A DNA stretch of 64,000 nt from Agromyces sp. ISL-38 (GTDB taxonomy: Bacteria > Actinomycetota > Actinomycetes > Actinomycetales > Microbacteriaceae): contig NZ_JAGGPF010000009.1 in NCBI RefSeq assembly GCF_018613935.1, positions 1 through 64,000 on the forward strand, in the 5' to 3' direction. A program made the translations under genes and the position numbers. Positions 4,719 to 41,359 of this stretch are shown in pieces. Within the stretch, counting starts at the first letter, position 1. Each line of letters begins with the position of its first letter. The notes beneath the pieces are model-generated. The model did not search any database. It was not told where the DNA came from and was given only the letters and a program-made list of their open reading frames with translations.

Positions 4719-4795
<77 letters not shown>

Positions 4796-4799
4796 AATC

Positions 4800-4835
4800 G
4801 AAGGCCCGGGTATCGCACGCGATATCCGGGCCTTC
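4800..4835. terminator. Terminator between tRNA-Pro and the PPTase gene
   Basis: 17-bp inverted repeat (4800-4816 and 4819-4835, one G:T mismatch, 2-nt centre) of the GAAGGCCCGGG type. It separates two convergent transcription units and can serve both. A similar stem core recurs at 62561-62592. Confidence 0.85.
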
Positions 4836-4840
4836 AGTCG

Positions 4841-5536
4841 TCAGGTGAGCTCGTCGTCAGGTGAGCTGTCGTCGCGTGCCGGAAACGACACGACGCATCC
4901 GCCCGAAACCGTGAAGTGCACGATCGCGCGCTCGGGACCCGAAGCCGTGTCATCGATGGCGCGATCGAGCGCGTCCGTCGGGACGCGACGCGGATCCTTC
5001 GAAAGGCCGGTGCCACGCGCCTTGAGGGTCGCTTCCTTGATGGTCCAGGCACGCGCGAGCGCACGGCGGCGCGCTGTGCGCGGCAGCCGCTCGAGGCGCA
5101 CCTGCTCGTCGGCGGAACACATGCGGCGAATCAGCGCCACACGGTCGAACACGTCGAACGGCTCCTCTTCGACATCGGCGCCGACGAGCCCTTCGGCGAC
5201 GACGGCTACCAGCAGGGTCGAGGCGCTGTGCGCGATGCTGACGTCGATCCTTGCGTCGCCGAGCAGCCGCGGCTTGCGTCCGGGCGCATCAGCAGCGAAG
5301 CCCGCCCACACCGCTCCGAGACGCGAGGTGACGAGGTCACGGGCCCACGCTCGCCCGGCGGAGCGGCGGCGGCGCAGCGCGCCCGCCCGCGCGCTCCGCT
5401 CACCCGAGCCAGCTGCGGAATGGGCCTCGTCGACGCCGGTCGCAACGGTCCAGTCGCCCATCCGCCAGAACACGCCCGAGGCGGTCACGCCCTCGCTCGT
5501 CTCCATGAAGGCTGCGCCGCGGCCGTGGGCGATCAC
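4841..5536 (-). CDS. 4'-phosphopantetheinyl transferase (Sfp-like)
   Basis: 231 aa. Carries the two Sfp-family signatures: GADVEEE (GxDxE, Mg/CoA site) and WTIKEATLKARG (WxxKEA). Converts an apo carrier protein to the holo form with CoA. Start GTG at 5536-5534 overlaps the TGA of the ACP gene (GTGA), so it is the last gene of the FAAL-ACAD-ACAD-ACP operon and very probably activates that ACP. A longer frame upstream would run through the ACP gene. The N-terminal part is poorly conserved, as usual for the family. Confidence 0.92.
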   Translation of the reverse strand: MIAHGRGAAFMETSEGVTASGVFWRMGDWTVATGVDEAHSAAGSGERSARAGALRRRRSAGRAWARDLVTSRLGAVWAGFAADAPGRKPRLLGDARIDVSIAHSASTLLVAVVAEGLVGADVEEEPFDVFDRVALIRRMCSADEQVRLERLPRTARRRALARAWTIKEATLKARGTGLSKDPRRVPTDALDRAIDDTASGPERAIVHFTVSGGCVVSFPARDDSSPDDELT

Positions 5537-5784
5537 GCCGCGGCGAGCCGTTCGGAGAGGCCGCCGGCGAGCTCGCGGATCGTGGGGTGGTCCCACACGA
5601 TCGTCGGATCGACGTCGAGGTCGAACTCGTCCTCGATGTCGCCGCACAGCGTGAGGGCGTACACCGAGTCGAGGCCGAGCTCTGCGAGTGGCGTGTCGGG
5701 TGTGAAGCTGCCGGAATCGACCTTTCCGTAGGCCACGACACGTTCGACGAGCCAGGACTCGATGGCGTCCGTCTGAGTATTCAT
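5533..5784 (-). CDS. Free-standing acyl carrier protein
   Basis: 83 aa acidic protein of PP-binding type; the phosphopantetheine site is LGLDS with Ser40. Length and the absence of other domains make it a discrete carrier. ATG (5784) overlaps the stop of the upstream ACAD gene and its own stop overlaps the PPTase start, so it is locked into the operon between loading enzymes and PPTase. It should carry the acyl chain activated by the FAAL. It is unlikely to be the housekeeping fatty-acid ACP, which normally sits with fab genes. Confidence 0.93.
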   Translation of the reverse strand: MNTQTDAIESWLVERVVAYGKVDSGSFTPDTPLAELGLDSVYALTLCGDIEDEFDLDVDPTIVWDHPTIRELAGGLSERLAAA

Positions 5785-7532
5785 GCTGTACTTCCTTCTT
5801 CGGCTTCAGGATGCCGCGGGTGGGTTCGGGTGGAGGGGGCGAGCCGGATGTCCCGTGCGACGTGATCCTCGGCGAACGCGATCAGCCGATCGACGAACGC
5901 AGGGTCGAGCGGCGGGATCCGCCCGCTGAGCCGACCCTCGATGCGAGCCAGGCATGCTTCGCGTACGAGTGGGTCGCGCGTGATGGACGGTGCATCCGGG
6001 CCAGCGCACACGCCCCCCCAGGCGCCTGCGGCGAGGAGCAGGGTCAGGCGGTGGGCCAGCGCGAATGCGGCCGGCGGGGCATCCGTGCCGAGCTCCGACG
6101 CGGTGAGCGCGTCGATCTGCTCGCCCAACTCGTCCAAAGCCTCACCGAGGCGGTCGAGGGCGTTCGCGGCGCCTGAATCCGGCGCGAACCGTTCCCGCAC
6201 CGTCGGGTCTCGCAACGCGGCTCCGAGCGGGTCGCTCGAGCCCGCGCCGAGTGAGAGTCGGCCGAAGTCCAGCTCCTCGAGCGGGCCGCCGAGCTGGAAG
6301 AGCGCCGGATCGGTCGCCTGGGTTCTGCGCGAGCGGCGGAGCCAAGCCGGCAGGTTCGGGAGGATGGTAAGCAGGCACGCCGTCGATCCGCCATGCCCGA
6401 TCGGAACGATTGCGAGGTCGCGCAGGAACTTCTCGAAGATCTCGTAGGGAGCGACGCGCGCGTAGAACGTCGAGCCGAAGAGCACGGAAAGGTCTTGCAT
6501 CGCCGACGTGAGCAGGTGCGGCACGAGGTACTTCGCCGCGGCGGTGAGGATCAGGCACTCGGCCGGTGCGAGATGGAGCGCGCGCACCACCACCGCGCTG
6601 AGGGCATCGGCGATGAGGAAATCGGCGATGGCGCCCGCGAGGAGTGCCCGGGCGTGCGGCAGGTCGAGCACCACGCCGCCGTAGAGCGAACGCTCCGATC
6701 CGAAGCGAACGGCGAGATCAAGTGCCGCGTCGACGGTGGCGATCGCGAGCGCGGGCACGACGGCGCGGCTCACCTGGAAGGCGGTCAACGCGACCTGCGC
6801 CGCCGCCCCCGGCGCGCCGATGGTGCCCGAGGCGGGCACCGGGAGGTCGTCGAACACCGCGTCGCCGAGTCGGCAGCCGCGCATGCCGGCGGTGAGCACC
6901 CGACGTGACGTGTCGGCGAAGGGCCGGGTGACGTCATCTTTGTTCCACATCAGCAGCGTGTGGCTGCGCGCGCCGGGCTCGTCGGATGTCCGCGCCATGA
7001 TCAGGATCGACTCGGCGCGATCGACGTTGTTGATGACGTGCTTCTGGCCGCGCACGTACCAGCGGCCTCCGCGCTCGGTGGCGGCGCATTCGTTGTGCAG
7101 CAGGTCGTTGCCGTGGTCGAGTTCGTGGAAGCCTACGGCGATGCGCTCGCCGCGCACGAGACGATCGGCGACATCCGCGCGCTGCTCGTCGTCGCCGGCG
7201 ACCCACACATTGAGTGCGGCCATGAGCGTGGTGATCCCGTAGCCGAGGCCGAGCGACGGATCCCGGCGGAAGATGGGCCGCCACCGCTGTACGAGGTCCT
7301 CGGTGGAGACCCAGCGGCCGCCGAGTGACGCGGGCACGAAGTCCGCCCCCGCGCCCCACTCCTCGAGGATCGACTCCGCGGCTGCGCTCATGCGGCGTGC
7401 CTGGTCGTCGTCGGCGATCGTGGCGTATCCGAACGGGCCGGGCGCCATCGGGTCGCCGAAGAGCGCGTCGAGGTCGTCGGGCTCGCCCGCCGTCGTGCGC
7501 GCCCGGGGCGAGGAAGACCCGACCGTCGTCAT
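5781..7532 (-). CDS. Acyl-CoA dehydrogenase homologue, probable beta-type partner
   Basis: 583 aa, longer than typical 380-400 aa ACADs because of a C-terminal extension of about 180 residues. ACAD fold signs: HELDHGNDL in the flavin/substrate middle region, RTSDEPGARSHTLLMW beta domain, an all-alpha C-terminal domain with RDLAIVPIGHGG. By eye this last motif aligns with IYEGT of canonical ACADs, and the catalytic-base Glu position reads His. ATG overlaps the stop of the upstream ACAD and its stop overlaps the ACP. Related in layout to the adjacent ACAD, which suggests a heteromeric enzyme acting on ACP-bound acyl chains. Activity is unproven. Confidence 0.82.
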   Translation of the reverse strand: MTTVGSSSPRARTTAGEPDDLDALFGDPMAPGPFGYATIADDDQARRMSAAAESILEEWGAGADFVPASLGGRWVSTEDLVQRWRPIFRRDPSLGLGYGITTLMAALNVWVAGDDEQRADVADRLVRGERIAVGFHELDHGNDLLHNECAATERGGRWYVRGQKHVINNVDRAESILIMARTSDEPGARSHTLLMWNKDDVTRPFADTSRRVLTAGMRGCRLGDAVFDDLPVPASGTIGAPGAAAQVALTAFQVSRAVVPALAIATVDAALDLAVRFGSERSLYGGVVLDLPHARALLAGAIADFLIADALSAVVVRALHLAPAECLILTAAAKYLVPHLLTSAMQDLSVLFGSTFYARVAPYEIFEKFLRDLAIVPIGHGGSTACLLTILPNLPAWLRRSRRTQATDPALFQLGGPLEELDFGRLSLGAGSSDPLGAALRDPTVRERFAPDSGAANALDRLGEALDELGEQIDALTASELGTDAPPAAFALAHRLTLLLAAGAWGGVCAGPDAPSITRDPLVREACLARIEGRLSGRIPPLDPAFVDRLIAFAEDHVARDIRLAPSTRTHPRHPEAEEGSTA

Positions 7533-9220
7533 GCGTGGACCCCCCAGCCATCGAGCATCGAAAGCCTGCTGCCGGATCGCGCCGCCTCGAGTGCCTGCCC
7601 TGCCAGCTCGGCGGCCGATGCCGCGGCCGACTCGGAGCGCACCAGACCGAGCCGCACCGAGATCCGCTCGAGGATCGCGAGGAGCCGACCCTCCGACGCA
7701 GCACCACCACTCCCTCGCCCGGCGAGCTCGACGGCGATCGCGCAGGATGCCCCGAAGCAGAGCGCCAGCCGCATCGCGACATCGAACGATGCTGCACTGG
7801 GCGCGGCTTGCCGTGGCGCGGCGCCGGCGGCCTCGAGCAGCCGATGGAGCTCGGCGGTGATGTCCTGCGCCGGCCCGGCCGATGGCCGTGAGCCGAGCAG
7901 GTCGGCGAACGCGGGGAGCGCACGCAGCAACCGCGACCCTCGGCGGGTCACGAGTCGGAGGTGGAGCGGATCCACCCAGACCTGCGGTTCCGCGTCCACG
8001 TGGAAGTCGCGCAGGATGCCGCCGACGTCGACCGGGTCGGCAGGGCGGGTGATGGCCGTGAACTCGTTGACGATCATGTTGAGGTTCACGACGGAGTTGC
8101 CGTCGAAGATCCCGACGGCCCGGTTGTCTCGCGCTGCCTTCTGGAACTCCCCGGCGCCTGCGACGCCGAGCAGCTGCGACCTGGCCCCGAGGAACGACGT
8201 GAGGTCGCGGAAGAGGAGGTCGACGGTGTCGGGCACGAGGAACTTCACGAGCGAACTCACGAGCGCCAGCTCTTGCGGCGCGTGATGCGCCTCGCGCGCC
8301 CCGGCGAATGTCACACACTCCGCGAGCAGCGCATCGGCCACGGCAGTTCCGAGCGTCGCCCGGGCTGCGGGCAGCGACCCGAGCTCCCGCCCGAACACCC
8401 GGCGCGACGCGGCGAACTCCACGGCCACGTCGACCGCGTGGTCCGCCGCTCCGAGCGAGAGTGCGGTCGAGAGCGGGCGCGTGAACTGCAGGCTCTTCAG
8501 CACGATCTCGAGGCCGAGGCCCGGGTCGCCGACGAGCCTGTCACGTTCGACGGTCGTTCCTCGCATCGAGAGGCCGCTGATGTCCGCGCCGCGATTGCCG
8601 TAGGTTGCCACCTTGGGCTCCGAGGCGAGGGAATGCGTGTCGACGCGACCCTTGTCGACGAGGACGAGCGACAGCGCGCGGGGCCCGGGCGCATCCGAGG
8701 TGCGTGCGAGCACGGTCATCGCGCGCCCCCGCGTGGCATTGTTGACCGGCCACTTGACGCCGTCGACCACGATGCTCGAGCCGATCGCAGCGGTCGTCGC
8801 CGTGGCGGAGAGATCGGAGCCCCTCCCACGCTCGGTGAGACCCCACGAGAGGGGCGCGCCGTCGAGCACGAGCTCGGCCATGATCGCCGCGATCTGGCCG
8901 CCCGCCACCCATGCGCTGACGGCGCCGAGGAAGCTGATGCCGTGGGCGACCGCGACGGTGAGATCGCGCGCGGCGGTGGCGCGGATCATCATCATCGGCA
9001 CGAACACATCGCGAAGCTCTCCGCCGTGTTCGGCCGGGGTGTAGTACCGGTGCAGCCCCCACGCGTTCAGGGCGCCGACCGCGTCGCCGGGGTACGCCGA
9101 GGCCTCGTCGAGCTCGAGCGAACGCTCGGTCGAGATCACCGCGGACTGATCGCGCGGATCGCCGAGGTACCGGTCGAGGTCCGCGACTGCCATCCGGCCG
9201 GCGAGCGCTGAGCGCGTCAT
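7529..9220 (-). CDS. Acyl-CoA (acyl-ACP) dehydrogenase homologue
   Basis: 563 aa. ACAD features in order: N-terminal helical domain, SWGLTERGRGSDL (the x-TExxxGSD flavin motif) near residue 150, VKWPVNNATRG beta strand, RTSDAPGPRALSLVLV, and a C-terminal helical domain with FRDLTSFLG. At the position of the catalytic Glu of IYEGT it has IFDG, i.e. Asp, by manual alignment. The canonical GSD motif is kept here but not in the downstream homologue. Overlaps the FAAL stop by 4 bp. Expected reaction: FAD-dependent alpha,beta-desaturation of an acyl thioester; electron acceptor not in the window. Confidence 0.85.
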   Translation of the reverse strand: MTRSALAGRMAVADLDRYLGDPRDQSAVISTERSLELDEASAYPGDAVGALNAWGLHRYYTPAEHGGELRDVFVPMMMIRATAARDLTVAVAHGISFLGAVSAWVAGGQIAAIMAELVLDGAPLSWGLTERGRGSDLSATATTAAIGSSIVVDGVKWPVNNATRGRAMTVLARTSDAPGPRALSLVLVDKGRVDTHSLASEPKVATYGNRGADISGLSMRGTTVERDRLVGDPGLGLEIVLKSLQFTRPLSTALSLGAADHAVDVAVEFAASRRVFGRELGSLPAARATLGTAVADALLAECVTFAGAREAHHAPQELALVSSLVKFLVPDTVDLLFRDLTSFLGARSQLLGVAGAGEFQKAARDNRAVGIFDGNSVVNLNMIVNEFTAITRPADPVDVGGILRDFHVDAEPQVWVDPLHLRLVTRRGSRLLRALPAFADLLGSRPSAGPAQDITAELHRLLEAAGAAPRQAAPSAASFDVAMRLALCFGASCAIAVELAGRGSGGAASEGRLLAILERISVRLGLVRSESAAASAAELAGQALEAARSGSRLSMLDGWGVHA

Positions 9221-10941
9221 GCGACCGCTCCTCGGTCGAACCCGAGCGTGAGCACGGTGGGCAGTCGTTCCTCCGCGAGGAGCGAACGGGTGAGCCCGCG
9301 CTGCACTTTGCCGCTCGTCGTCCGCGGAAGGCTTCCCTTGCGGATGAGCGCGACGCCGAGCTCGGGCAACATGTACTCCTCCGAGACCGCGCGCCGAACC
9401 CGCTCGGCGAGGGCCTCGAGGTCGCCGTCGGCGAGGCGTGCGGCATCGACCTCGGCCACGAGGCCGACGGCGGGATGCGACGCCGATCCCTCGAATGCGG
9501 CGCTGAGGCATCCAGCGTGCAGCAGGGGCGCGGCGGTCTGCTCGAGGTCCTGCGGATAGATGTTGCGACCGCGGATGATGATGAGGTCTTTGAGCCGACC
9601 GGTGATCAGCAGCTCACCATCGACGGTCGTGCCGAGGTCGCCGGTGCGGAGGTACCGATGGTCGTCCCCCGGGATGATCACGCCGAACACAGCCGCGGTC
9701 TCGCCGGGCCGGCGCCAATACCCCTGCGTGATGCTCGGGCCGCTCACGAGGATCTCGCCGACCTCGCCGTCGGCGGCGCGCGTGCCGGTCACGGGATCCA
9801 CAATCTCTATGCGGTGCCCCTCGGCCGGCGGCCCGCAGGAGACGAGGTCTACCTTTCGCGCGTCATCAGCCGGCGCGCGCAGGAGGCCTTGCTCGATGCC
9901 GGCCGCGTCCGCTGGTATCGCCCGCACCGGGTGACCGGCGGCCTTCGCCGTCACGAGGAGCGTGGTCTCCGCCATGCCGTACGCCGGAATGAAGGAATCG
10001 GCGCGGAATCCGGTGGGCGCGAACCGCTCGGCGAACGCCCGGAGCGTCGCGATCCGCACCGGTTCCGCGCCGGTGATCACGCCCTCGAGCGAGGAGAGGT
10101 CGAGTCCGGCGAGCTGTTCGTCGGTCACCAGCCGCGTGCACAGCGCATAGGCGAAGTCGGGCCCGACCGTATGGGTGGCGCGATGCTCGGTGATGAGCCG
10201 CAACCAGAGCAAGGGGCGCCGGAGGAACTGGCTCGGCGAGGTGAGCACGCTGTCGCCCCCGACGTAGATCGGTTGGAGCAGCTGCCCCACGAGGCCCATG
10301 TCGTGGTAGTGCGGGAGCCATCCGACGGTGCGGGACGCCGCGGTGAGCCCCACAGCCGACGTGATCGCCGCCTCGTTCGCGACGAGGTTGCCGTGGCTGA
10401 CCATGACCCCCTTCGGCACGCCCGTTGAGCCCGACGTGTACTGGAGCAGCGCGAGGGACTCCGCGTCGATCGCGGGCGGTGTCCAGTCGTCGGCGCGGCC
10501 GTCGAGGCTGTCGACCGCCATGACGCTCGCGACGCCGACCGCATCACCCACGGCGAGTCCGAGCGGCGCCAGCGCGGCATCCTGCGTGAGCACGATGCGG
10601 CTTCCGGAGTCGGCCACGATCGACTCGAGTCGGCGCAGCGCGACCTCGGGCTGACGCGTCGCCGTGACCGGCACGGGTGCGGCGGTGAGGCCCGCATAGA
10701 ACACGGCGTAGAGCGCGCGGATGAATCCCAGGCCGGGGTCGAAGGCGAGCACCACGACATCACCGGCGGCATACCCTGCTGCGGTGAGCGCAGCGGCATC
10801 CGCTTGAGCCTGATGGTCGAGCGACGCATACGACGCGAACACCGAGTCGCTCGGGTTCGTGTAGAAACGCAGACCGCGTGCGTCGCCTGCCGTCACGGCG
10901 GCGCTGCGCATCGCGTCGAGGAACGTGGTGTTCGTGTTCAC
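9217..10941 (-). CDS. Fatty-acyl-AMP ligase (FAAL)
   Basis: 574 aa ANL-superfamily enzyme. P-loop YTSGSTGVPKGVMVSH, then LPHYHDMGL and GPDFAYALC that mark FAALs rather than acyl-CoA ligases, the RTGDLG hinge region, the GRLKDLIIIRGRNIYPQDLE A8 loop, and a C-terminal SGKVQRG Lys. FAALs adenylate free fatty acids and hand them to an ACP. Start GTG at 10941; first gene of the operon. Faces the pyruvyl transferase of the glycan locus across a 241-bp divergent gap. Chain length not predictable by eye. Confidence 0.93.
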   Translation of the reverse strand: MNTNTTFLDAMRSAAVTAGDARGLRFYTNPSDSVFASYASLDHQAQADAAALTAAGYAAGDVVVLAFDPGLGFIRALYAVFYAGLTAAPVPVTATRQPEVALRRLESIVADSGSRIVLTQDAALAPLGLAVGDAVGVASVMAVDSLDGRADDWTPPAIDAESLALLQYTSGSTGVPKGVMVSHGNLVANEAAITSAVGLTAASRTVGWLPHYHDMGLVGQLLQPIYVGGDSVLTSPSQFLRRPLLWLRLITEHRATHTVGPDFAYALCTRLVTDEQLAGLDLSSLEGVITGAEPVRIATLRAFAERFAPTGFRADSFIPAYGMAETTLLVTAKAAGHPVRAIPADAAGIEQGLLRAPADDARKVDLVSCGPPAEGHRIEIVDPVTGTRAADGEVGEILVSGPSITQGYWRRPGETAAVFGVIIPGDDHRYLRTGDLGTTVDGELLITGRLKDLIIIRGRNIYPQDLEQTAAPLLHAGCLSAAFEGSASHPAVGLVAEVDAARLADGDLEALAERVRRAVSEEYMLPELGVALIRKGSLPRTTSGKVQRGLTRSLLAEERLPTVLTLGFDRGAVA

Positions 10942-11182: not shown

Positions 11183-12442
11183 ATGGCGATGCGGGCCGGG
11201 GAACTGAAACAGCGGTTGTCGCGGCCGTTGCGCTCGCCGGGGCTGATCGCGGCCGCCGACCGGATGCTGCTGCGCCGCCCGAACCCGCCGGTCGACGGCC
11301 GCCGCCACCATGTGGTGCTCGCGCCCGCCGGGGGCGGGAACATCGGCGATCAGGCGCTCGTCGAGGCGTTCATCGAGAACGTCGACGGCGATGTGACGGT
11401 GATCTGCCGACGCCCGACCGACTACGTACTCCCCGGCGATCCCGATGACGCCGACGACGGCAGGGTTCGGATGCTGCCCCTCCTCTCGCTCGTCTACGGC
11501 GACCTCATCGGGCACCTCCGCGACCTCGGCCGCTTCCGCGCTGCCCTCCGCACGGCGACCTCGTTCTCCGTGATCGGGGCGGATGTCATGGACGGCGGCT
11601 ACGGCTTCCGCGCCTCGACGAACCGCGCGAACCTCGCGCGGCGCGTCGCGGAACTCGGGATCGATGCGCGGATCCTCGGGTTCAGCTGGAACGCGTCGCC
11701 CGATCCACGAGCACGCGACGCGGTTCGTGAAGCCGCTCGTCGGGGCGTCACGACGGTGCTGCGGGATCCGCGCTCCGCCGCTCGCGCCCGCGCCGACGGC
11801 ATCGACCCCGTCGTCGACGGTGCCGACATCGTGTTCCTCGCGCGCAGTGTCGACGATGCTTCGGCGGCGGCATGGGCCGACCGGGTCGCCGCACCGCTCG
11901 CGCTCGTGAACTTCTCCGGCCTCGTCCCGGCCGCGGGCGGGCTCGACCCGTACGTCGCCGTCGTCCAGGAGCTCCGCGACCGCGGGCACGGCGTGCTCCT
12001 CGTGCCCCACGTGTCGAGACCGGGCGCCGACGACCTGCCGCTCTCCCGCGCGGTGTCCGAGCGGTTCGCCGCAGACGATGACGTGCTGCTCGTCGATCGG
12101 CTCCTCACGCCTGCGGCGATCCGCGGGCTCACGAGGCGTGCACGCGTCACCGTGACGGGTCGCATGCACCTGGCCGTCATGAGCCTCATGCACGGGGTTC
12201 CCGCGGTGACGGTGGCAACCCAGGGCAAGGTCGAGGGCCTGATGGAGCTGTTCGGCACGCCGGAGCTGTGCGTGCCGACCGACGCGATCGCGACATCGCT
12301 CGCGGCGGTCGCGGCGACGACCGCCGACACCGCCGACCAGCTCTCCAGCGTCATCCGCGCCCGCCTCGACGCGGTGACCGAGCTCGCCGGCCGCAACTTC
12401 GTCGGCCTGCGGCGAGCCGACCGCACTGTTACCTCCCGGTAA
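11183..12442 (+). CDS. Polysaccharide pyruvyl transferase family protein
   Basis: 419 aa. PF04230-type: N-terminal GGGNIGDQALVEAF and C-terminal VTGRMHLAVMSLMHGVP are the family hallmarks (as in WcaK/CsaB). The enzyme moves enolpyruvate from PEP to a sugar hydroxyl as a ketal, giving the glycan a negative charge. ATG 11183 is chosen because AGGAGG lies 6 bases upstream; a longer in-frame extension to 10925 has no such signal and would overlap the FAAL start. First gene of the plus-strand run of locus A. Confidence 0.9.
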   Translation: MAMRAGELKQRLSRPLRSPGLIAAADRMLLRRPNPPVDGRRHHVVLAPAGGGNIGDQALVEAFIENVDGDVTVICRRPTDYVLPGDPDDADDGRVRMLPLLSLVYGDLIGHLRDLGRFRAALRTATSFSVIGADVMDGGYGFRASTNRANLARRVAELGIDARILGFSWNASPDPRARDAVREAARRGVTTVLRDPRSAARARADGIDPVVDGADIVFLARSVDDASAAAWADRVAAPLALVNFSGLVPAAGGLDPYVAVVQELRDRGHGVLLVPHVSRPGADDLPLSRAVSERFAADDDVLLVDRLLTPAAIRGLTRRARVTVTGRMHLAVMSLMHGVPAVTVATQGKVEGLMELFGTPELCVPTDAIATSLAAVAATTADTADQLSSVIRARLDAVTELAGRNFVGLRRADRTVTSR

Positions 12443-14722: not shown

Positions 14723-16240
14723 ATGTCCAGCGAAGCCGAATCGATGACGTTCGTCGGACGCCCCGCAGATCGCCTCATCGGTCGCGCCGCGGTCGTCGGG
14801 CGCCGGGTCGTCGCCCAGCCGAGGCGATTGGGATGGCGTCGACGCCTCGTGTACGCCCTCGCGCTGACCGATACGGCGCTCATCGCGGTCGCCCTGCTCG
14901 TGGCGCAGCTGGTGCGATTCCGAACCAGCGGATTCGACGCCGCGACGCCGCAGAGCGACGTCGACTATCTCTCGCTCAGCGCGGCGATCGCGGTCGGCTG
15001 GCTCCTCGCCCTCTCGGCCACCCGGTCGCGTCTGCTTCGCAACATCGGCACCGGCACGGTCGAGTACCAACGGGTCGTCAACGCGACGCTCATCACCTTC
15101 GGCACCTTCGCCGTCATAGCGTTCCTCCTCCAGATCGACATCGCCCGCGGCTTCCTCGCGGTCGCGCTTCCCCTCGGGCTCGCACTTCTGCTCGCCGGCC
15201 GCATCACGTGGCGCTACGCATTGCACGCGATGCGACGGGTGGGTCGATGCACGACCGGGGCGATCATCGTCGGGCGACCCGACGATGTCGCACGCGTGGT
15301 CGTCGAGCTCCGCCGCCAATACCGGGTCGGGTATCGCGCGATCGGTGCGGCATTCGCCGGATCCGCTCGCACCCCGCAGCCACGCGCGTTCGACCTGCCG
15401 ACCGTCGCCTTCGCCGACCTCGCCGCGACATCGAGGCGCACGCGCACTCGAGCGGTCATCGTCGCGGGCGACCTGCCCGGCGGCAGCGCGACGATCCGTC
15501 GACTGGGTTGGGACCTCGAGAACTCCCAGACCGAGCTCATCCTGGTGTCCCGGTTGACGGATGTCGCGGGCCCGCGAATCCACCTGCGGCCCATCAACGG
15601 CCTTCCGATGGTTCACGTCGACCTGCCGCAATACTCCGGCTTCGCGCACTCCGTCAAACGCGTCTTCGACATCGTCGTGACCGGTGGCGTGCTCCTCGTG
15701 TTGAGCCCGCTCTTCGCGGCGATCGCGATCGGGGTGCGGCTCTCGAGCGCGGGACCGGTGCTCTTCCGGCAGGAACGGGTAGGAGCGAACGGCACGCGGT
15801 TCACGATGCTGAAGTTCCGATCCATGGTCACCGACGCCGAGGCGAGGCTCCTCGAGCTGCGGGACCGGAACGAGGGCAACACGGTGCTCTTCAAGATGAG
15901 GGACGACCCGCGCGTCACGCCGTTCGGCCGCATCATCCGCCGGTTCTCGCTCGACGAGCTGCCGCAACTGTGGAACGTCCTCGCCGGCGAGATGAGCCTC
16001 GTCGGCCCGCGGCCGCCCCTACCGCACGAGGTCGAGCAGTACCAGGAGGATGTCACCCGCCGCCTCCTCACGAAGCCCGGCATCACCGGTCTCTGGCAGG
16101 TGAGCGGACGGTCGAACCTCTCCTGGGAGGAGAGCGTGAAGATCGACCTCTACTACGTGGAGAACTGGTCGCTGACCGGGGATCTCGTCATCTTGTTGAA
16201 GACGGCGCGCGCGGTCTTCAGCAGCCAGGGAGCGTATTGA
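14723..16240 (+). CDS. Polyprenyl-phosphate sugar-1-phosphate transferase (initiating, WbaP/CpsE type)
   Basis: 505 aa integral membrane enzyme that starts glycan repeat synthesis by putting a hexose-1-phosphate on undecaprenyl (decaprenyl) phosphate. N-terminal cluster of membrane helices (about 45-180), a central Rossmann-like CoA-binding domain, one further hydrophobic segment near residue 325 (VFDIVVTGGVLLVL), then the catalytic Bac_transf domain: KFRSMVTDAE, DELPQLWNVL, GEMSLVGPRPP and TGLWQVSGRS. ATG 14723 sits 7 bases after AAGGGGG; the frame is open further upstream without such support. It is the only enzyme of this class in the window, so it may serve both glycan loci. Confidence 0.94.
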   Translation: MSSEAESMTFVGRPADRLIGRAAVVGRRVVAQPRRLGWRRRLVYALALTDTALIAVALLVAQLVRFRTSGFDAATPQSDVDYLSLSAAIAVGWLLALSATRSRLLRNIGTGTVEYQRVVNATLITFGTFAVIAFLLQIDIARGFLAVALPLGLALLLAGRITWRYALHAMRRVGRCTTGAIIVGRPDDVARVVVELRRQYRVGYRAIGAAFAGSARTPQPRAFDLPTVAFADLAATSRRTRTRAVIVAGDLPGGSATIRRLGWDLENSQTELILVSRLTDVAGPRIHLRPINGLPMVHVDLPQYSGFAHSVKRVFDIVVTGGVLLVLSPLFAAIAIGVRLSSAGPVLFRQERVGANGTRFTMLKFRSMVTDAEARLLELRDRNEGNTVLFKMRDDPRVTPFGRIIRRFSLDELPQLWNVLAGEMSLVGPRPPLPHEVEQYQEDVTRRLLTKPGITGLWQVSGRSNLSWEESVKIDLYYVENWSLTGDLVILLKTARAVFSSQGAY

Positions 16241-19316: not shown

Positions 19317-20185
19317 CCGGCACCCTTTTCCAACGCGTTCCAGGCGAGCTCGGCGATCACGCGTTGTCCGGCGACCGACGGATGAAAGTAGTCGATCGAG
19401 GAGATCTCATCCGCCGTGAACGGGTAGGTGAACACCGCGCCGTCGTCGTCGATGCAGCGCTCGACCGCGGCGCACACTCGCTCGATGGCGGCGTTGTACT
19501 CAACGACCTGGGCAGCGACGGCGTCGCGCCGCCCGGCTGCCTCAGCCGACTCGTCGTCGGCGGAGCCGAGCAGGTTCTTGCAGGACGCGCTGCCGTTCCA
19601 CGTCTGCACCGTGCGCTCGTTCGCATGTCCGATCTCCCAGAGGTGATAGAGGTCGGGCACGGAGAGGGCGAGGATCGTGGCGTCGGGCGCCTCAGTGCTC
19701 AAACGGCCGAACAGCTTCGTCAACCGGGCCTCGTAGTCGTGTGTACTGGTCATCTCGGCGAGGCTCGGCGCGCACGCGTCATTGCCGCCGAGCAGCACGG
19801 TGACCAATTGTGGCCCTGCCTGGAGCACTTCGTCGACGAGCCCGAGGGCGTCTTCGACATCGCCGCCGTCTTTCGCCGCGTTCACGACGTTCGGTTCGAC
19901 ACCGGATGCCACGGCCAGCCGCTCCGCGATGGATCCGACAGCCGGGTCGGTGCCGCCCGACCAGGATGCCGCGGCGCATTGGCCCTGCTCGGCGCACGCG
20001 TTGACGCCGAGCGACACGGAGTCGCCGAGGATGCCGAGGGTTGCGACCGCGGGCGCGGCCGACGGCGGCTCCAGGTCGGCGAGGTCGGGGGGCGGTTCGC
20101 TCGTTGCGCAGCCCGCGAACAGCGTCAGCGCGAGGGTCGCGATGATCGGGCGCGCGATCCGAGCTCGGGTGCGGGATCTGCTCAC
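19313..20185 (-). CDS. SGNH/GDSL hydrolase lipoprotein
   Basis: 290 aa. N-terminus has a basic region, a hydrophobic core and the lipobox LFAGC (about residues 22-26), so an exported lipoprotein. SGNH blocks: GDSVSLG (nucleophile Ser), GGNDAC and a C-terminal DYFHPSVAG (catalytic Asp/His). Such enzymes remove or move O-acyl groups. GTG start overlaps the flippase stop (GTGA). Probably edits acyl groups on the exported glycan; a second SGNH-like lipoprotein opens locus B. Confidence 0.88.
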   Translation of the reverse strand: MSRSRTRARIARPIIATLALTLFAGCATSEPPPDLADLEPPSAAPAVATLGILGDSVSLGVNACAEQGQCAAASWSGGTDPAVGSIAERLAVASGVEPNVVNAAKDGGDVEDALGLVDEVLQAGPQLVTVLLGGNDACAPSLAEMTSTHDYEARLTKLFGRLSTEAPDATILALSVPDLYHLWEIGHANERTVQTWNGSASCKNLLGSADDESAEAAGRRDAVAAQVVEYNAAIERVCAAVERCIDDDGAVFTYPFTADEISSIDYFHPSVAGQRVIAELAWNALEKGAG

Positions 20186-21783
20186 GGTTCCGCCTTCCTG
20201 TCGTTGCCGACGGCGTCGCGGTGGGGTGCGTGATCGCCCTCGCGTGCCGCCGCGACATCCCGGACGACCTCGTCGACATACGTCGGCACCGCTGCCGCGG
20301 ACGACGGCGCGGCCGCCGCCGGCTTGCGCACCTGCTTGACGAATCCGATGATCTGCGCGAGATCGCGTCGGTACGCCGGGATGAGGAGGCACGCGAGCAG
20401 TGGTGCGATGCCGGCGGCGACGCCGAGCGCGAGTTGCACGACGGCGGGAAGCCCGGGCGTCGCCAGCTGCACGCCGTAGGCGGCGCCGAAGCACAACGGG
20501 GCGAGGACGACAGGCCGGATGATCGGGCGCAGGATGTCGCCGATGCGCACGAAGGTCCCGGTCGTGGCGAAGTGGAAGCCGGGCACGAGCAAAGCGAGCG
20601 TGAGGAGTCCGTAGACGAGGGCGAGCCCCTCGACGCCCGCCCACCAGATGCCGAGGAAGTACCCGCCGATCACCATCGGACGCGTCACGAGGTAGTAGAT
20701 GAGCTGGCGATGCGCGCGACCGAGGGTGATGTACAGCCATCCGAGCACGCTGCCGATCGACTGCGCGACGCCCGCGATGGCGAGGAGGCTGAAGAGCGTC
20801 GCGGCCTCCTCCCAGCCGGGCCCGAGCAGGATCGCGATGAGCGGCGACGAGACCGCGGCGGCGACGGCGTAGACCGGGATGGTCAGGTAGCCGATGATCA
20901 TGAGGGCGCCGCGTATGTACCGGCGATACCGGTCGCCGTCGTCCTGCAGCTTGCTGAGCACCGGCAGCGCCACGCGCCCGAGGGTGCCGTTCAGCTGCTG
21001 CATCGGCAGGAGGTAGAGCGCGTACGCTCGCGAGTACTGGCCGAGGGCCGCGGGCCCCATCTGCTGGCCGATGATGACGTTGTCGAAGTTCTTCGCCGCG
21101 TAGTTCAGCAGCTGGACGCCGAAGATGCTGCCACCGGTCGTGACCAGCGGCACGACCTCGCGCGAGATGTGCGGGCGGCCGAACTTGGGCCGGGAGGCGA
21201 CCCACAGGGCGATGAGCCGGTAGAGCTGCCCTGCGCCCGACATGACCACGAGCGACCACACGCCCCAGCCGAGCAGGGCCGCGCCGATGCCGAGGCCGAC
21301 GCCGCAGAGCATCGAGACGACGTCGATGTTCGCGAGCACGCCGAATCGCAGGTTGCGCTGCACGCGCGCCTGCATCGGCATCGACAGCCCGTTGATGAGG
21401 AGGATCGGAGCGATCGCCAGGGTGAGCGGGATGAGCCGCTCCTCGTCGTAGAGCAGTGCGATGAGCGGTGCGGACGCGGCAATCACGACCATGAGCACGA
21501 CCCCGAGTGCCACCGAGAGCCACATGACGCTCATCCACATGCGATCGCTCAGGTTCCTCGCCTGGATGATTGCGCCGGTGAGGCCGAAGTCGCGCACGAG
21601 GTCGGCGACGCCGACGATGGCGGTGACCATCGCGACGAGGCCGAAGTCGGCCGGCGTGAGCAGACGGGCGAGCACGACCGTCGACGCCACCTGGATGAGC
21701 GTCTTGCCGCCGAAGCCGCCCATGGTCACGAACACCCCCCGTGAGGAGGTGTGCGCGAGCCGGTCGGTGGCCGGGGCGCTCAT
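20182..21783 (-). CDS. Polysaccharide flippase (Wzx-like, MOP superfamily)
   Basis: 533 aa, with about a dozen hydrophobic segments between residues 20 and 460 and a hydrophilic tail. LTPADFGLVAMVTAI and NFDNVIIGQQMGPAALGQYSRAY are typical of Wzx/MOP family 2 exporters (WzxC type). Moves lipid-linked repeat units across the membrane. ATG overlaps the upstream GT2 stop. Paired with the polymerase at 22637-24262 as the locus A Wzx/Wzy set. Confidence 0.93.
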   Translation of the reverse strand: MSAPATDRLAHTSSRGVFVTMGGFGGKTLIQVASTVVLARLLTPADFGLVAMVTAIVGVADLVRDFGLTGAIIQARNLSDRMWMSVMWLSVALGVVLMVVIAASAPLIALLYDEERLIPLTLAIAPILLINGLSMPMQARVQRNLRFGVLANIDVVSMLCGVGLGIGAALLGWGVWSLVVMSGAGQLYRLIALWVASRPKFGRPHISREVVPLVTTGGSIFGVQLLNYAAKNFDNVIIGQQMGPAALGQYSRAYALYLLPMQQLNGTLGRVALPVLSKLQDDGDRYRRYIRGALMIIGYLTIPVYAVAAAVSSPLIAILLGPGWEEAATLFSLLAIAGVAQSIGSVLGWLYITLGRAHRQLIYYLVTRPMVIGGYFLGIWWAGVEGLALVYGLLTLALLVPGFHFATTGTFVRIGDILRPIIRPVVLAPLCFGAAYGVQLATPGLPAVVQLALGVAAGIAPLLACLLIPAYRRDLAQIIGFVKQVRKPAAAAPSSAAAVPTYVDEVVRDVAAAREGDHAPHRDAVGNDRKAEP

Positions 21784-22640
21784 GCGATCGCCCTGCTGGT
21801 CTCGTCGCGCGCCCACTCCGGCTCCCTTCGCTCGGCGATCAGCCTGCGGGCCCGAAGCCTCGGAACCGTCGAGGTGACGCAGTAGACCCCGAACGCGACC
21901 CAGAGCCGCGGTTGCCGCGCCACCCGTCGCACGAGGTTGCCGGCGCGGTCTCCCATTGGCGCGTCGGCCGCGAGCTGCACGTCCGACGGGAGCTCGCGGT
22001 TGCCCCGCGCGATCCGGGTCGAGCGCCGCAGGTGCGCCGCGAGGGTGCGGGCGCTCCGGACACGGAACGCGTGCCCGTCGAGGGTCTCGCGCTCGGACGG
22101 CAGGAACAGCTGCTGCACGAAGCGGTCGTCCGCGATGACGTGCGGCCAGGTATCGAAGCGCGCGCGCCCCGCGGCCGACATCGCGTAGATGCCGGAACCG
22201 ATGTGCCCAGCGCTCCGGTAGTCGGTCAGCTCCCAGATCCGATAGTGCTGGCGCACCGGCCATGACACGCCGTCCGTGTCGATCTCCAACCGTGGCGAAG
22301 CGACGAGCGGACCGCCGGTGCGAGTGAGCGCGTCGGCGAGCGCGAGCAGCGTCGCAACGTCGACTGCGACGTCGGCGTCGACGTACGCGCGGGGAAACGT
22401 CGTGGCGGCGGCATCCCCCGCCTCGAGGGCGTCGATCTTCGACGCCGCGGCGATCTCGACCACGCGCACGGCCGGTTCGAACGCGCGCGCCACAGGCACG
22501 GTCGCGTCGCGGCATCCGTTCGCGACCACGACGATCTCGAGTTCGGTCGAGTGCGGGTCGGAGGTGAGCGCCTCGAGCAGGCGCCCGATGACGGCGGCTT
22601 CGTCGTGCGCCGGGATCACGACGGAGAGGCGCACCGTCAT
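21780..22640 (-). CDS. Glycosyltransferase family 2
   Basis: 286 aa. Starts LSVVIPAHDEAAVIGRLL, then VVVANGCRDAT, AYVDADVAV (DxD) and IADDRFVQQLF. The C-terminal 80 residues contain a hydrophobic stretch (VAFGVYCVTS) and may contact the membrane. Translation is coupled on both sides by 4-bp overlaps (polymerase and flippase). Confidence 0.9.
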   Translation of the reverse strand: MTVRLSVVIPAHDEAAVIGRLLEALTSDPHSTELEIVVVANGCRDATVPVARAFEPAVRVVEIAAASKIDALEAGDAAATTFPRAYVDADVAVDVATLLALADALTRTGGPLVASPRLEIDTDGVSWPVRQHYRIWELTDYRSAGHIGSGIYAMSAAGRARFDTWPHVIADDRFVQQLFLPSERETLDGHAFRVRSARTLAAHLRRSTRIARGNRELPSDVQLAADAPMGDRAGNLVRRVARQPRLWVAFGVYCVTSTVPRLRARRLIAERREPEWARDETSRAIA

Positions 22641-24262
22641 CTGGCCGACCCCATCTCGCGGTCGGCCGGCTCGGCGAGGTCGGATGCCTCGTCCGTTGTC
22701 TCCATCGAACGACGGCGCTCACGCCGCGGCGCCTCGATGAGCAGCCACGCGCCGACGGCGAGGAGCATGCACAAAATGAAGAACGTCTGGAAGAAGCCGA
22801 ACGCGTCGTAGAAGAAGATCGCCGCGATGTACCCGGAGAGCGACACGGCGATGGTGATGGCGAGCATGGAGTGGCGATGCTCTGCCGCCTGGGTGAACGC
22901 GAAATGGAGCAACCGGATCGGCGGCACGAGGAGGAACACCGCGAGGCCGAGCACGCCAAGCGCGCCCGTCTCCATGAGCGTGCCGAGGAACTGGTTGTCG
23001 AGGATGAACGCGTTGGCCTCGTCGCCGATCACGATGCGGCTGCCGAACCCGCTGCCGAAGAACGGTTGCTGGCCGACCTCGCGCATCGCAGGTTCGAGGT
23101 CGGCGAGCCTGCCCGCACCGCCGAAGCCCGCCGAGGTGTACTGCGACGCGACGAGCGAGTCGATGTCGAGGAAGGAGAGCACCATCGACTCGAACACCTT
23201 GGGCAGCACGGCGGCCGCGAGCAGCACGACGGGGAACGCGAGCGCGAACAGGACCCCTGCGACCCGTGGATGGAAGATCAGCGTGACGAGGAACATGATC
23301 CCGAGCACAACGACCGCCGTGCGGGAGATCGCGGCGAGGACACCGCCGAAGAGCATGACCGTTGCGCCCGCGTAGACGAGCTTGCGATTGATGCTGTTCG
23401 TCGGCCATGCCGCGTACTTCGCCAGGTAAATGGCGAGCGGGATGAGGATGCAGAGCGCGACGGCGAGTGCGATCGGATGCTGCGCCGAGCCGAACGCGCG
23501 GGTGACGCCCGCGCGACTCACGTCGCCGCCCTCGCGGAGGAGCGTGAGCGGCAGCACGTCGCCGAGCATGAGGAAGACGTTCATCTTCGACACGCGCTCG
23601 ATCAACGCGAAGAACGAGACGACCACGCCCGCCCACGTAATGAACGTGACGAGGAGCATCACGTCGCGCTCCGAGCGCAGCAAGAGCCGGAAGCAGTAGA
23701 AGACCGCGAGCATGGCCAGGAGCTGGGAGATGCCCCCGATCGCAGTCTCGACGAGTCCCTGGTTCGCGAGCTCCATGCCGTTCACGACGAACGAGACGAG
23801 CACGGTGACGAGGAGGATGCCGATCGGCCACCCGAACGCCACGGGGCGCCAGCGCACCTCGGGCTTCAGGATGAGTGCCACGACGAGCGCCACGACCACG
23901 ATCCCGAGCACGAGACGGTAAGGCTCGAGCTGGAACGGCAACGGCATCGGGATCGCGTAGCGGCGCGCTGGCACGAACATGATGACCGCGGCGAGCGCGA
24001 TGATCGCCGCCGTCCAGCTGAAGACGAACCGGCGGAAGATCACGAGCAGCGCCACCACGAGGAGCACGCCGCCTGCGATCAGCGGCGGGAGCAGCGCCAC
24101 CGCGGTGACCGCGACGACCGCCAGCACGGCGGCCGCCACGATGACACGCCGCCGATCGAGCGCGGCTGTCGGCGGTTCGGCCTGCGGCGTTTCGGATGCG
24201 GCACCGGTCTCGGGCGCACGGGTCGCGTCGGCGGCTTCGAGCACGCCGTCGGCGGAGGTCAC
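22637..24262 (-). CDS. O-antigen polymerase/ligase family membrane protein (Wzy-like)
   Basis: 541 aa with around 12 membrane helices and a large extracytoplasmic loop holding the ligase-type region (SRTAVVVLGIMFLVT, then FGGAGRLADL and FFGSGFGSR). Expected to polymerise lipid-linked repeat units on the outer face. The start is GTG 24262; GAGG upstream and only 8 bp separate it from the chain-length gene. The hydrophilic first 35 residues are Ala/Glu-rich. Confidence 0.88.
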   Translation of the reverse strand: MTSADGVLEAADATRAPETGAASETPQAEPPTAALDRRRVIVAAAVLAVVAVTAVALLPPLIAGGVLLVVALLVIFRRFVFSWTAAIIALAAVIMFVPARRYAIPMPLPFQLEPYRLVLGIVVVALVVALILKPEVRWRPVAFGWPIGILLVTVLVSFVVNGMELANQGLVETAIGGISQLLAMLAVFYCFRLLLRSERDVMLLVTFITWAGVVVSFFALIERVSKMNVFLMLGDVLPLTLLREGGDVSRAGVTRAFGSAQHPIALAVALCILIPLAIYLAKYAAWPTNSINRKLVYAGATVMLFGGVLAAISRTAVVVLGIMFLVTLIFHPRVAGVLFALAFPVVLLAAAVLPKVFESMVLSFLDIDSLVASQYTSAGFGGAGRLADLEPAMREVGQQPFFGSGFGSRIVIGDEANAFILDNQFLGTLMETGALGVLGLAVFLLVPPIRLLHFAFTQAAEHRHSMLAITIAVSLSGYIAAIFFYDAFGFFQTFFILCMLLAVGAWLLIEAPRRERRRSMETTDEASDLAEPADREMGSAR

Positions 24263-25386: not shown

Positions 25387-26598
25387 ATGGCTTCGACGGG
25401 ATCGAAGGGCGGCCAACGGGTTTCGATCCTGTACAGCTTCCCGCACGCGATCGGCGCGCCCGGCATCGGATGGACGGCGTGGAACCAGGTGAACGAACTC
25501 GTCCGCGCCGGGCACGAGGTGCACGTCGTCGCCGCGAGCGTCGCACGCCGGGTGCCCGGTCTCGCATCCGTCGAGACCTCGCTCACGGTGGCCGGCCGTC
25601 GGATCCCCCATCGCGCGATAGGTCGCGACCGTGCCCTCGCCTGGCACGACACGGTCGCAGCGCGATCGGTCGCCAGGCGAGCTCCCGAGGTCGTGCACGT
25701 ATGGCCGCTCGCGGCGAGCCGGACGATCGCCGCGGCTGCGCGGAGCGGCATCCCGTCGTTCCGCGAGGTGCCGAACACTCACACCGGCAACGCCTACGAG
25801 GTCGTGGCGCGCGAGTCCGCACGCCTGGGGCTCACCCCGCGAGCGGGTGCGTCGCACTCCGCCGATCCGCGGCGGCTCGCCACGGAGGAGCGCGAGTGGG
25901 CTACCGCGACGGCACTCCTCGTTCCCTCGGAGGCGGTGGCGACGACGTTCCTCGAGCGCGGGTTCGACCCTTCGAGGCTTCGGCGCCATCGCTACGGCTG
26001 CACGCCGGATGCCACGGTGACGCGAATCGGGTCGGGGTCGACCGGGCTCACGGCCGTCTTCCTCGGCCGCGTCGAGCCGCGAAAGGGACTCCACCACGCC
26101 CTCGACGCCTGGCTCGCCTCGAGCGCCTGCGGCCACGGACGACTGCTCGTGTTCGGTGCCATCGACGATGACTACCGCTCGGTGCTCGCCGATCGCCTCG
26201 CGCATCCGAGCGTCGAACTTCGGGGCGTGACGAACGCGCCGATGCATGAACTCGCCGGCGCGGACGTGCTGCTCCTTCCGACCATCGAGGAGGGCAGTGC
26301 GCTGGTCACCTACGAGGCCCAGGTCGCCGGATGCGTCCCGCTCGTCTCGACCGCGGCGGGTGCCCTGCTCGACCACGACGTGCACGGGTTGCTGCACGAC
26401 GTCGGCGATGTCGCCACCCTCACGGCGCAGCTCGACCTGCTCGCCGGCGATCCCGACACGCTCGCCCGACTCAGTGCGGGCGCCATGGCCCACGCTCCCG
26501 AATTGAGCTGGGCCGCCGCAGCGCAGAGCCTCCTCGCCGCCTACGGCCGAACCTCAAGCCTCGCCCCGAAGGGATCCGAGCGTGCAGACGCCGCATGA
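25387..26598 (+). CDS. Glycosyltransferase family 4-like
   Basis: 403 aa from ATG 25387, 5 bases after GGGGG; ATG 25309 and 25330 are in frame but lack a ribosome site. GT-B enzyme: HAIGAPGIGWTAWNQV, VHVWPLAASR, LFLGRVEPRKGLHHAL-like donor start (AVFLGRVEPRKG), and EGSALVTYEAQVAG (E-x7-E type). Opens the second plus-strand operon of locus A, 25387-30478. Start certainty is moderate. Confidence 0.85.
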   Translation: MASTGSKGGQRVSILYSFPHAIGAPGIGWTAWNQVNELVRAGHEVHVVAASVARRVPGLASVETSLTVAGRRIPHRAIGRDRALAWHDTVAARSVARRAPEVVHVWPLAASRTIAAAARSGIPSFREVPNTHTGNAYEVVARESARLGLTPRAGASHSADPRRLATEEREWATATALLVPSEAVATTFLERGFDPSRLRRHRYGCTPDATVTRIGSGSTGLTAVFLGRVEPRKGLHHALDAWLASSACGHGRLLVFGAIDDDYRSVLADRLAHPSVELRGVTNAPMHELAGADVLLLPTIEEGSALVTYEAQVAGCVPLVSTAAGALLDHDVHGLLHDVGDVATLTAQLDLLAGDPDTLARLSAGAMAHAPELSWAAAAQSLLAAYGRTSSLAPKGSERADAA

Positions 26599-27520
26599 CC
26601 TCGCCGTGATCGTGTGCACTCGCAATCGTGCGACGATGCTCGCGGCCGCGCTCCGTTCGATCACCCAAGCGGTGCCCGCCGGCGTGGAGGTGCTCGTCGT
26701 CGACTCCGCATCGGACACGTGGGAGACCCGCGACGTCGCCGAGGCGGCCGGTGCCGGGTACGTGCGCAGCGAGATCCGTGGCCTCTCGATCGCGCGCGAC
26801 CTCGGCCTCCGCACGAGCACGCGCCCGCTCGTGCTGTTCACCGACGACGACTGCATCGCCGTAGACGGGTGGATCGACCCGATCCTCGAGCGATTCGGCG
26901 ACCCCACCGTCGGCGCGGTGACGGGCCGCATGCTCGACCACACGCTCATCGGCGACACCGGCGCACCGGCGCCACCGCGCCGGTTCACGCGGACGATCCA
27001 GGGCCCCGACGCCGGTCACGGCGCCGTCATGGCTTTCCGCCGTCAGCTCGTGCTCGAACTCGGCGGCTTCGACGATGTGCTGGGAGCCGGACGTCATCTG
27101 GCTGGCGCGGAGGACCTCGACATGTTCTGCCGCGTGCTCGACGCCGGCCACGCGATCGTGCACGAGCCCTCGTGCATCATCCACCACACGAACACCCGCG
27201 AGGGCGACTCGTACACTGCGCTCCACCTCGGCTACGGGCTCGGCCTCGGCGCGCTCGCCAACAAGCTCCTGCGCTTGCGCTTCCGGGTGGGCATCGCCTT
27301 TCTCGCGGTGCTGCTCAAGCGCACCGGCGGGCGCGCGGTGCGGCACTTCCGCGATCCGCGCAAGGGCAGCGCGGATCGGGCGATGCTCCGCGGCATCCGT
27401 CAGGGCTTCGTCGCCGGCGCCAGGATGAAACTCCAGGGAACCACGTTCATCGACGAGCATCCACCGCCGTCGACGCCGGTCGACGAGCACGTCGACCGAG
27501 ACACCGAGAGGAATCGATGA
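26582..27520 (+). CDS. Glycosyltransferase family 2
   Basis: 312 aa. GT-A motifs: [35 protein letters not shown] (DxD), [11 protein letters not shown] and [18 protein letters not shown] start follows GAAGGGA and overlaps the previous gene by 17 bp. Stop overlaps the WS/DGAT-like gene (ATGA), so that acyltransferase is translated together with it. Confidence 0.9.
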
Positions 27521-41351: not shown

Positions 41352-41359
41352 CGTGGTCC

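Follow-up and report, generated by a model that had tools for sequence, protein, structure and literature searches.

A fatty acid starter cassette beside a polysaccharide locus in Agromyces sp. ISL-38 and its possible role in glycan acylation

The window considered here is a 64,000-nucleotide stretch of Agromyces sp. ISL-38 (contig NZ_JAGGPF010000009.1, positions 1 to 64,000), and it contains a minus-strand operon (10941-4841) that encodes, in this order, a fatty acyl-AMP ligase (FAAL), two members of the acyl-CoA dehydrogenase family (ACAD1 and ACAD2), an acyl carrier protein (ACP), and a phosphopantetheinyl transferase (PPTase). We think it fairly probable that this cassette prepares a fatty acid, by loading it onto a carrier and desaturating it, to be joined to a polysaccharide. 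This reading is favored because the genes keep their linkage across genomes, because the cassette co-occurs with a gene of the wax ester synthase/DGAT (WS/DGAT) family, because WS/DGAT proteins are fused to glycosyltransferases in relatives, and because no other consumer of the acyl chain is evident in the window's genome (G000), all of which are direct observations.

The chemical steps are predictions from gene content, and so are the identity of the acceptor sugar, the length of the chain, and the place of its double bond. The PPTase would convert the ACP to its holo form, and the FAAL would adenylate a free fatty acid and hand the acyl group to the ACP. Oxidation of the acyl-ACP, most likely to the 2-enoyl-ACP, would fall to ACAD1, probably with ACAD2 as its partner; the chain held by the ACP is thus probably alpha,beta-unsaturated. 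The WS/DGAT homologue would move the acyl group from the ACP onto a sugar hydroxyl of a repeat unit that the neighboring family-2 glycosyltransferase would help to build, and a Wzx/Wzy-type system would export and polymerize this unit. A first-pass annotation had already proposed an ACP-bound chain destined for a glycan. Synteny, co-occurrence, and fusions speak for that direction, as does the lack of nonribosomal peptide synthetase (NRPS) and polyketide synthase (PKS) genes in G000, but three corrections are needed: the gene order is a known one, a WS/DGAT gene is present, and ACAD2 should not be taken for granted as a second working enzyme.

More tentatively, and with somewhat less than even confidence, we propose a carrier-protein route to heteropolysaccharide lipidation in Microbacteriaceae. 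Here, a lipopeptide-type starter module (FAAL, ACP, and PPTase, with or without the ACAD pair) would supply acyl chains to a WS/DGAT-type enzyme that acts on the repeat unit; some relatives carry this enzyme as a fusion with a glycosyltransferase. Related glycan loci would be combined with three modes of supply (FAAL-ACAD-ACP, FAAL-ACP, and none), which largely track the acyltransferase clades. The parts are known; the combination of FAAL/ACP, WS/DGAT, and polysaccharide genes is apparently undescribed. If the proposal is true, a module that starts antibiotic assembly lines has a second use in modifying a polymer of the bacterial surface, by way of a family better known for storage lipids, and the role of FAAL/ACP genes in actinobacteria that have no NRPS or PKS is explained. 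Hydrophobic or emulsifying polysaccharides would then be expected in isolates from soil and leaves, and strains that have or lack the desaturation step would form a natural series.

The cassette and its candidate acyltransferase

The five genes lie where the first-pass annotation had placed them, with coordinates, Pfam domains, and overlaps all in agreement (Table 1). Each of the four junctions is a 4-bp overlap, ATGA at the first three and GTGA at the last. A convergent tRNA-Pro gene (4719-4795) lies beyond the hairpin that follows the last cassette stop. None of the five proteins matched an NCBIfam model above its cut-off among the matches listed (for the FAAL, the best 25 of 104).

Table 1. 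Features of the cassette and of the divergent polysaccharide locus, with predicted roles
Feature	Position	Strand	Evidence and remarks
Operon-end hairpin, probable terminator	4799..4836	-	-27.8 kcal/mol, z -5.84, 0/200 shuffles equally stable
PPTase, Sfp/AcpT-type phosphopantetheinyl transferase	4841..5536	-	PF01648 (ACPS) 1.2e-13; NCBIfam HetI/AcpT models below cut-off
ACP, free-standing acyl carrier protein	5533..5784	-	PF00550 (PP-binding) 2e-14; GLDS attachment motif
ACAD2, acyl-CoA dehydrogenase family without acidic catalytic base; predicted partner subunit	5781..7532	-	PF02770, PF00441
ACAD1, acyl-CoA dehydrogenase family; predicted catalytic acyl-ACP dehydrogenase	7529..9220	-	Pfam middle and C-terminal domains
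FAAL, fatty acyl-AMP ligase	9217..10941	-	PF00501 (AMP-binding) 8.9e-66; GTG start
Polysaccharide pyruvyl transferase, first gene divergent from FAAL	11264..12442	+	PF04230 1.9e-17; start uncertain, in-frame alternatives upstream
Initiating sugar transferase	14723..16240	+	PF02397 1.5e-69
Polysaccharide flippase, Wzx type	20182..21816	-	PF13440 8.3e-77
Polysaccharide polymerase/ligase, Wzy type	22637..24262	-	PF04932 8.4e-9
Family-2 glycosyltransferase	26582..27520	+	PF00535; ATGA overlap with WS/DGAT gene; homologue fused to WS/DGAT in relatives
WS/DGAT-family acyltransferase; predicted ACP-to-glycan acyl transfer	27517..28830	+	PF03007, HHxxxD motif, and fold all present
Hexapeptide-repeat acetyltransferase, adjoins WS/DGAT gene	28866..29369	+	PF00132; WS/DGAT neighbor in 15/15 type A loci

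By sequence comparison, the cassette ligase is a FAAL: proteins of this kind with solved structures match it better than acyl-CoA ligases do. It matches the structural entries for FadD23, FAAL, FadD32, and FadD28 at 5e-76 to 2.4e-59 and long-chain acyl-CoA ligases far more weakly (8weu, 1.2e-26; FadD13, 8.4e-23). Its best solved match, 7r7f (1.7e-111), carries the name polyketide synthase, and other better-scoring matches are named saframycin synthetase and acyl-CoA synthase; we take all of these to be FAALs. In G000, the cassette FAAL is the sole match at E<=1e-40.

The two dehydrogenase homologues differ in their prospects. ACAD1 has the fold, the flavin motif, and the carboxylate base of the acyl-CoA dehydrogenase superfamily (28 of 29 rows were kept in its alignment after the length filter) and looks catalytic. 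In ACAD2, a His occupies the base position in all 18 full-length rows, and a Ser or Thr stands at the place that matches Glu254 of isovaleryl-CoA dehydrogenase, although a base may lie elsewhere in the protein. Even this His is lost in the ten Microbacterium rows, seven of which are without most of the middle domain and three without its flavin motif. ACAD2 may be a partner subunit. Both proteins are ACADs by Pfam, as first annotated, but two working enzymes should not be assumed. The idea of two independent dehydrogenases, hence a diene, was rejected as unproven in view of the ten defective Microbacterium rows; in Agromyces, as distinct from Microbacterium, a diene may be formed. According to a 2021 review, mechanistic studies on the ACADs of lipopeptide clusters had yet to be reported at its date (PMC9113097), and the truncated Microbacterium ACAD2 turns the role of the second dehydrogenase gene in those clusters into a testable question.

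The exopolysaccharide genes from which the operon was said to diverge are borne out by Pfam, with an initiating sugar transferase, a flippase, and a polymerase in one cluster, as in Wzx/Wzy-dependent loci. Missing from the original inventory was the likely transfer enzyme, the WS/DGAT homologue. Its nearest fold is that of wax ester synthase/DGAT, and its model also resembles PapA5 (1q9j), a mycobacterial acyltransferase that uses carrier-bound acyl chains. Membership in this family, together with the fold, raises the alternative that the enzyme makes a storage lipid, either wax ester or triacylglycerol, and is fed by the FAAL cassette. We regard this as very improbable: the protein scores 93 bits against the NCBIfam model TIGR02946, for which the cut-off is 310; an ACP with its own PPTase is kept, whereas storage-lipid WS/DGAT enzymes use acyl-CoA; and the glycosyltransferases with which WS/DGAT proteins are fused or share operons suggest that the acceptor is a sugar. 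The Marinobacter (6chj) and Acinetobacter (AbWSD1, 7nxg) wax ester synthase/DGAT enzymes share 15-16% identity with it in fold alignment, and, unlike them, the homologues considered here are linked or fused to glycosyltransferases and linked to FAAL/ACP genes.

Conservation and modes of acyl supply in Microbacteriaceae

A scan of genome contigs gave a single locus, in the close relative Agromyces sp. Soil535. Orthologues of ACAD1 were found in 7 of 60 Agromyces genomes (the window's own counted), in 11 of 366 Microbacterium genomes, and in 3 of 15 genomes of a third genus. The Microbacteriaceae family sample had them in 5 of 398 genomes (three are Agromyces already counted, and two of those from the third genus are in this sample), and the class sample in 15 of 394, two being Agromyces. 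All 21 Microbacteriaceae genomes with an ACAD1 orthologue have the same cassette gene set around it, with the locus of G1180 read only up to the FAAL, such that its ACAD2, ACP, and PPTase lie outside the stretch read. Because the cassette is conserved across these genomes, chance is excluded as its origin.

Tabulating neighbors across genomes, as the first-pass annotation had advised, placed a WS/DGAT gene near the cassette in 20 of the 21 (7/7 Agromyces, 11/11 Microbacterium, and 2/3 of the third genus) and genes of NRPS, PKS, or β-ketoacyl-ACP synthase III (KASIII) type in the eight loci examined outside the family. The commonest arrangement, type A, combines the cassette with most of the same polysaccharide cluster and the WS/DGAT gene (15/21; seven Agromyces and eight Microbacterium); the G037 cluster has no gene call for a pyruvyl transferase. 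In G384 and G451, the order is FAAL-ACAD1-ACAD2-ACP-PPTase-WS/DGAT, the acyltransferase being the last gene of the cassette operon, and in G836, G922, and G832 a more distant WS/DGAT homologue is divergent from the FAAL. The G-x-D-S motif is present in 33 of 34 ACP rows.

The co-occurrence is also seen genome-wide, with the Fisher p values that follow ignoring kinship among genomes. A WS/DGAT orthologue of at least 70% identity is present in all seven Agromyces genomes with the cassette and in none of the other 53 (p 2.6e-9). When any WS/DGAT match at E<=1e-25 is counted, three of those 53 have one (p 3.1e-7), and four more show partial matches (1e-13 to 1e-10). For Microbacterium, matches at E<=1e-25 occur in 11/11 cassette genomes versus 19/355 others (p 1.6e-13).

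The 19 Microbacterium genomes with a WS/DGAT gene and no ACAD cassette (of 30 with the gene), whose loci were all examined, and three Agromyces genomes (G028, G047, and G036) make up the ACAD-less set. Six of these genomes are of type B, in which one to three FAAL genes, an ACP, a PPTase, and a WS/DGAT gene follow one another as an operon among glycan genes (G036, G1083, G1184, G431, G967, and G977). Tandem FAAL paralogues were seen among the type B loci (L131, L132, L133, L134, L135, and L081), three each in G967 and G036, an arrangement that suggests several fatty acids feeding one ACP. The other 16 genomes are of type C, with a WS/DGAT gene among glycan genes and no FAAL in the genome (0/16 at E<=1e-40; G1106 is 72% complete, and 3.5 kb of the G1105 locus were covered). 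Of 44 WS/DGAT frames, eight are fused to a family-2 glycosyltransferase, seven from type C and one from type B. Further such fusions are found among database relatives (P0156, P0166, P0168, and P0169), and P0156 comes from Microbacterium sp. bgisy203, a strain that also has an ACAD1 relative (P0033), the contigs of the two being equal in length (529940). In 12 of 14 Microbacterium type C loci (L117-L120, L122, L123, and L125-L130), the homologue of the family-2 glycosyltransferase GT2a is about 670-700 residues long, some 370 residues of which are extra.

Acyltransferase phylogeny largely follows supply. In the WS/DGAT tree (44 rows), the supply label needs 4 changes, compared with a minimum of 3 and a shuffled mean of 22.5, and 0 of 200 shuffles were as low. 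The 15 rows with cassette and glycan cluster, drawn from two genera, form a single clade (100/99).

Alternative consumers and points against the proposal

The gene set is not confined to Microbacteriaceae. Outside the family, loci were examined in 8 of 13 genomes with an ACAD1 match, and the first four genes stand with NRPS genes in G703 (by Pfam) and in G583 and G786 (large proteins with an adenylation-type BLAST match), with a ketosynthase-acyltransferase-ACP (KS-AT-ACP) PKS in G691 and G808 (by Pfam, for G808 in part) and in G629 and G542 (similar gene sizes), and with a KASIII-type gene in G581. No WS/DGAT match was found in the 20-40 kb around the cassette in any of the eight. These neighbors lead us to regard the cassette as a general starter module, which Microbacteriaceae pair with WS/DGAT. 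Beside the four genes, the PKS loci (L082, L086-L088, and L093) hold a KASIII-like gene, a 2-oxoacid dehydrogenase-type acyltransferase gene, and a gene that we presume to be FkbH-like; tetronate-type is likewise our presumed label for the pathway. In G581 (L084-L085), the KASIII-type gene is followed, by eye, by ATP-grasp ligase-like and pyridoxal phosphate-dependent decarboxylase-like genes, and neither NRPS nor PKS was noticed in 40 kb.

Known lipopeptide pathways use the same order of genes. Two papers describe the rotihibin starter genes rthH-rthI-rthJ-rthK of Streptomyces scabies as FAAL, ACAD, ACAD, and ACP, with the fatty acid activated to the ACP and desaturated (PMC8552735); FAAL and ACP genes separated by one or two ACAD genes in lipopeptide clusters with unsaturated tails (PMC9113097); and related dehydrogenases in taromycin (Tar5/Tar6), malacidin (MlcH/MlcI), and friulimicin (LipB) biosynthesis (PMC8552735, PMC9113097). 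Rotihibin-type cassettes feed an NRPS, whereas no NRPS was found here, the PPTase is built in, glycan and WS/DGAT genes stand where the assembly line would be encoded, and ACAD2 is truncated in Microbacterium. The earlier statement that the exact set is undescribed thus fails for the FAAL-ACAD-ACAD-ACP order; what appears new is the glycan and WS/DGAT context.

Both the shared order and the eight outside loci would fit a cassette that belongs to a lipopeptide or polyketide pathway, as its remnant or as a starter module still in use, and is unrelated to the glycan genes. We judge this improbable. G000 has no condensation domain and no evident PKS; the cassette frames are unbroken, and seven Agromyces and eight Microbacterium genomes conserve them together with the glycan cluster; and in the unrooted FAAL tree the 32 Microbacteriaceae rows (types A, A2, and B) are split from nine sampled NRPS/PKS-type rows by a branch with 100/100 support. 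That tree has 41 rows, left from 45 best matches after length and alignment filters, and a G691 row labeled FAAL (31632) is probably another ligase (branch 3.24). The first-pass annotation had named NRPS or PKS neighbors elsewhere, with this locus a mere remnant, as what would overturn its view; such neighbors exist outside the family, but in Microbacteriaceae the locus is conserved and no remnant. Decay from an NRPS or PKS cluster was rejected in view of the content of G000 and of this conservation.

The search of G000 itself (3.72 Mb, 24 contigs, 92.9% complete) gave no match to the condensation domain PF00668, which the control finds in 4 of 14 known genomes; a condensation acceptor of the kind that an rthHIJK-type cassette serves is thus absent from the matches. 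The genome has one WS/DGAT and one FAAL. Of four matches to the ketosynthase model, one is full-length; its 453-aa frame is preceded, by eye, by genes that resemble FabD, FabH, and ACP genes. From its gene neighborhood, this locus reads as a FabD-FabH-ACP-FabF housekeeping operon, and G000 would therefore possess another ACP for housekeeping. The largest of the four frames (788 aa) is matched only in part; by eye, it belongs to a thiolase-like gene next to one that resembles an AMP ligase gene, both of sizes unlike those of a PKS, and no PKS is evident among the ketosynthase-model matches and neighbors so read. As first annotated, the Pfam-scanned neighbors of the cassette yielded no NRPS, PKS, or thioesterase match (genes below 4605 lie outside the scan, and the nearby GDSL-type hydrolase at 19313-20185 is described below).

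Two further systems offer partial precedents. In mycobacterial glycolipid pathways (PapA5, acyltrehalose enzymes), FAAL-activated chains on a carrier are extended by a PKS and moved to an alcohol by a Pap acyltransferase. The route proposed here would share the carrier-bound chain, the alcohol acceptor, and an enzyme of the condensation/WS-DGAT superfamily; it differs from the mycobacterial one, with its large PKS, in the stand-alone ACP, the lack of a PKS, and the Wzx/Wzy-type glycan locus. VexE of the Vi antigen capsule is a dedicated acyl-ACP-dependent acyltransferase that acylates a sugar. It differs in belonging to the lysophosphatidyl acyltransferase family, in acylating UDP-GlcNAc for the reducing end, and in being the single acyltransferase candidate in its locus, and neither FAAL nor ACAD is mentioned in the abstract of its description (PMC9597891). 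A Microbacterium study mentions antiSMASH saccharide and fatty acid clusters with data not shown (PMC7438953). Among the matches listed in open-licence literature, no description of FAAL/ACP genes with WS/DGAT in a polysaccharide locus was found.

Several observations weigh against polysaccharide acylation by the cassette. In the window, the WS/DGAT gene lies 16.6 kb from the cassette and in another operon, and the absences in G000 are provisional because of the incomplete, fragmented assembly. The stretches read of the eight Microbacterium type A loci gave no match to a flippase or a pyruvyl transferase, and the PPTase gene is not beside the cassette in 4 of the 20 loci seen (G836, G922, G832, and G277). 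The cassette rows of G836, G922, and G832 group with the ACAD-less type in the WS/DGAT tree, and the type C genomes, which have no FAAL, imply that the WS/DGAT family can work with another donor. G277 has the cassette and no WS/DGAT gene in 60 kb, and the open-licence literature matches listed include no acylated polysaccharide from strains with the cassette. The G277 ACP is also the exception to the G-x-D-S motif, and its ACAD2 was called in one gene-calling run and missed in the run with fixed codon usage. Where the WS/DGAT gene would be in G277 (L055-L057), there are a TetR-like gene, a gene for a 516-aa AMP-binding protein, and a 299-aa gene.

Other contrary loci bear on a different product. 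G384 and G451 have the full cassette and WS/DGAT, but BLAST over 60 kb and 20 kb, respectively, matched none of the window's glycan genes there, and G384 has a Glycolipid_bind gene (PF06475) 1.1 kb from the FAAL. Likewise, the window's glycan genes have few matches close to the divergent WS/DGAT genes of G836, G922, and G832; in G836 these are sugar transferase, tyrosine-kinase-like, and phosphatase genes, and in G922 they are sugar transferases. These loci would suit a small free glycolipid or lipid-linked precursor, for which WS/DGAT acylates a sugar or other alcohol while the polysaccharide genes are partly independent neighbors. We consider such a product unlikely, though the least so of the alternatives, since most of the glycan cluster is kept in 15 of 21 cassette loci and WS/DGAT lies between, or is fused to, glycosyltransferases. 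Attachment to a polysaccharide remains the reading that we prefer.

Further polysaccharide genes of the window

The window has a second polysaccharide cluster (39527-54682) with an acyltransferase-3 gene, a Wzy-like gene, glycosyltransferase genes, two Wzz/tyrosine-kinase-like genes, and a gene for a low-molecular-weight phosphatase. GDSL-type hydrolase genes are found one per polysaccharide cluster (19313-20185 and 41360-42643); the former recurs in the type A loci, where its product could serve to edit acyl or acetyl groups. Two UDP-sugar dehydrogenase genes (32269-33570, assigned by Pfam, and 37591-38892) lie on opposite strands, 4 kb apart, and encode near-identical N-termini.

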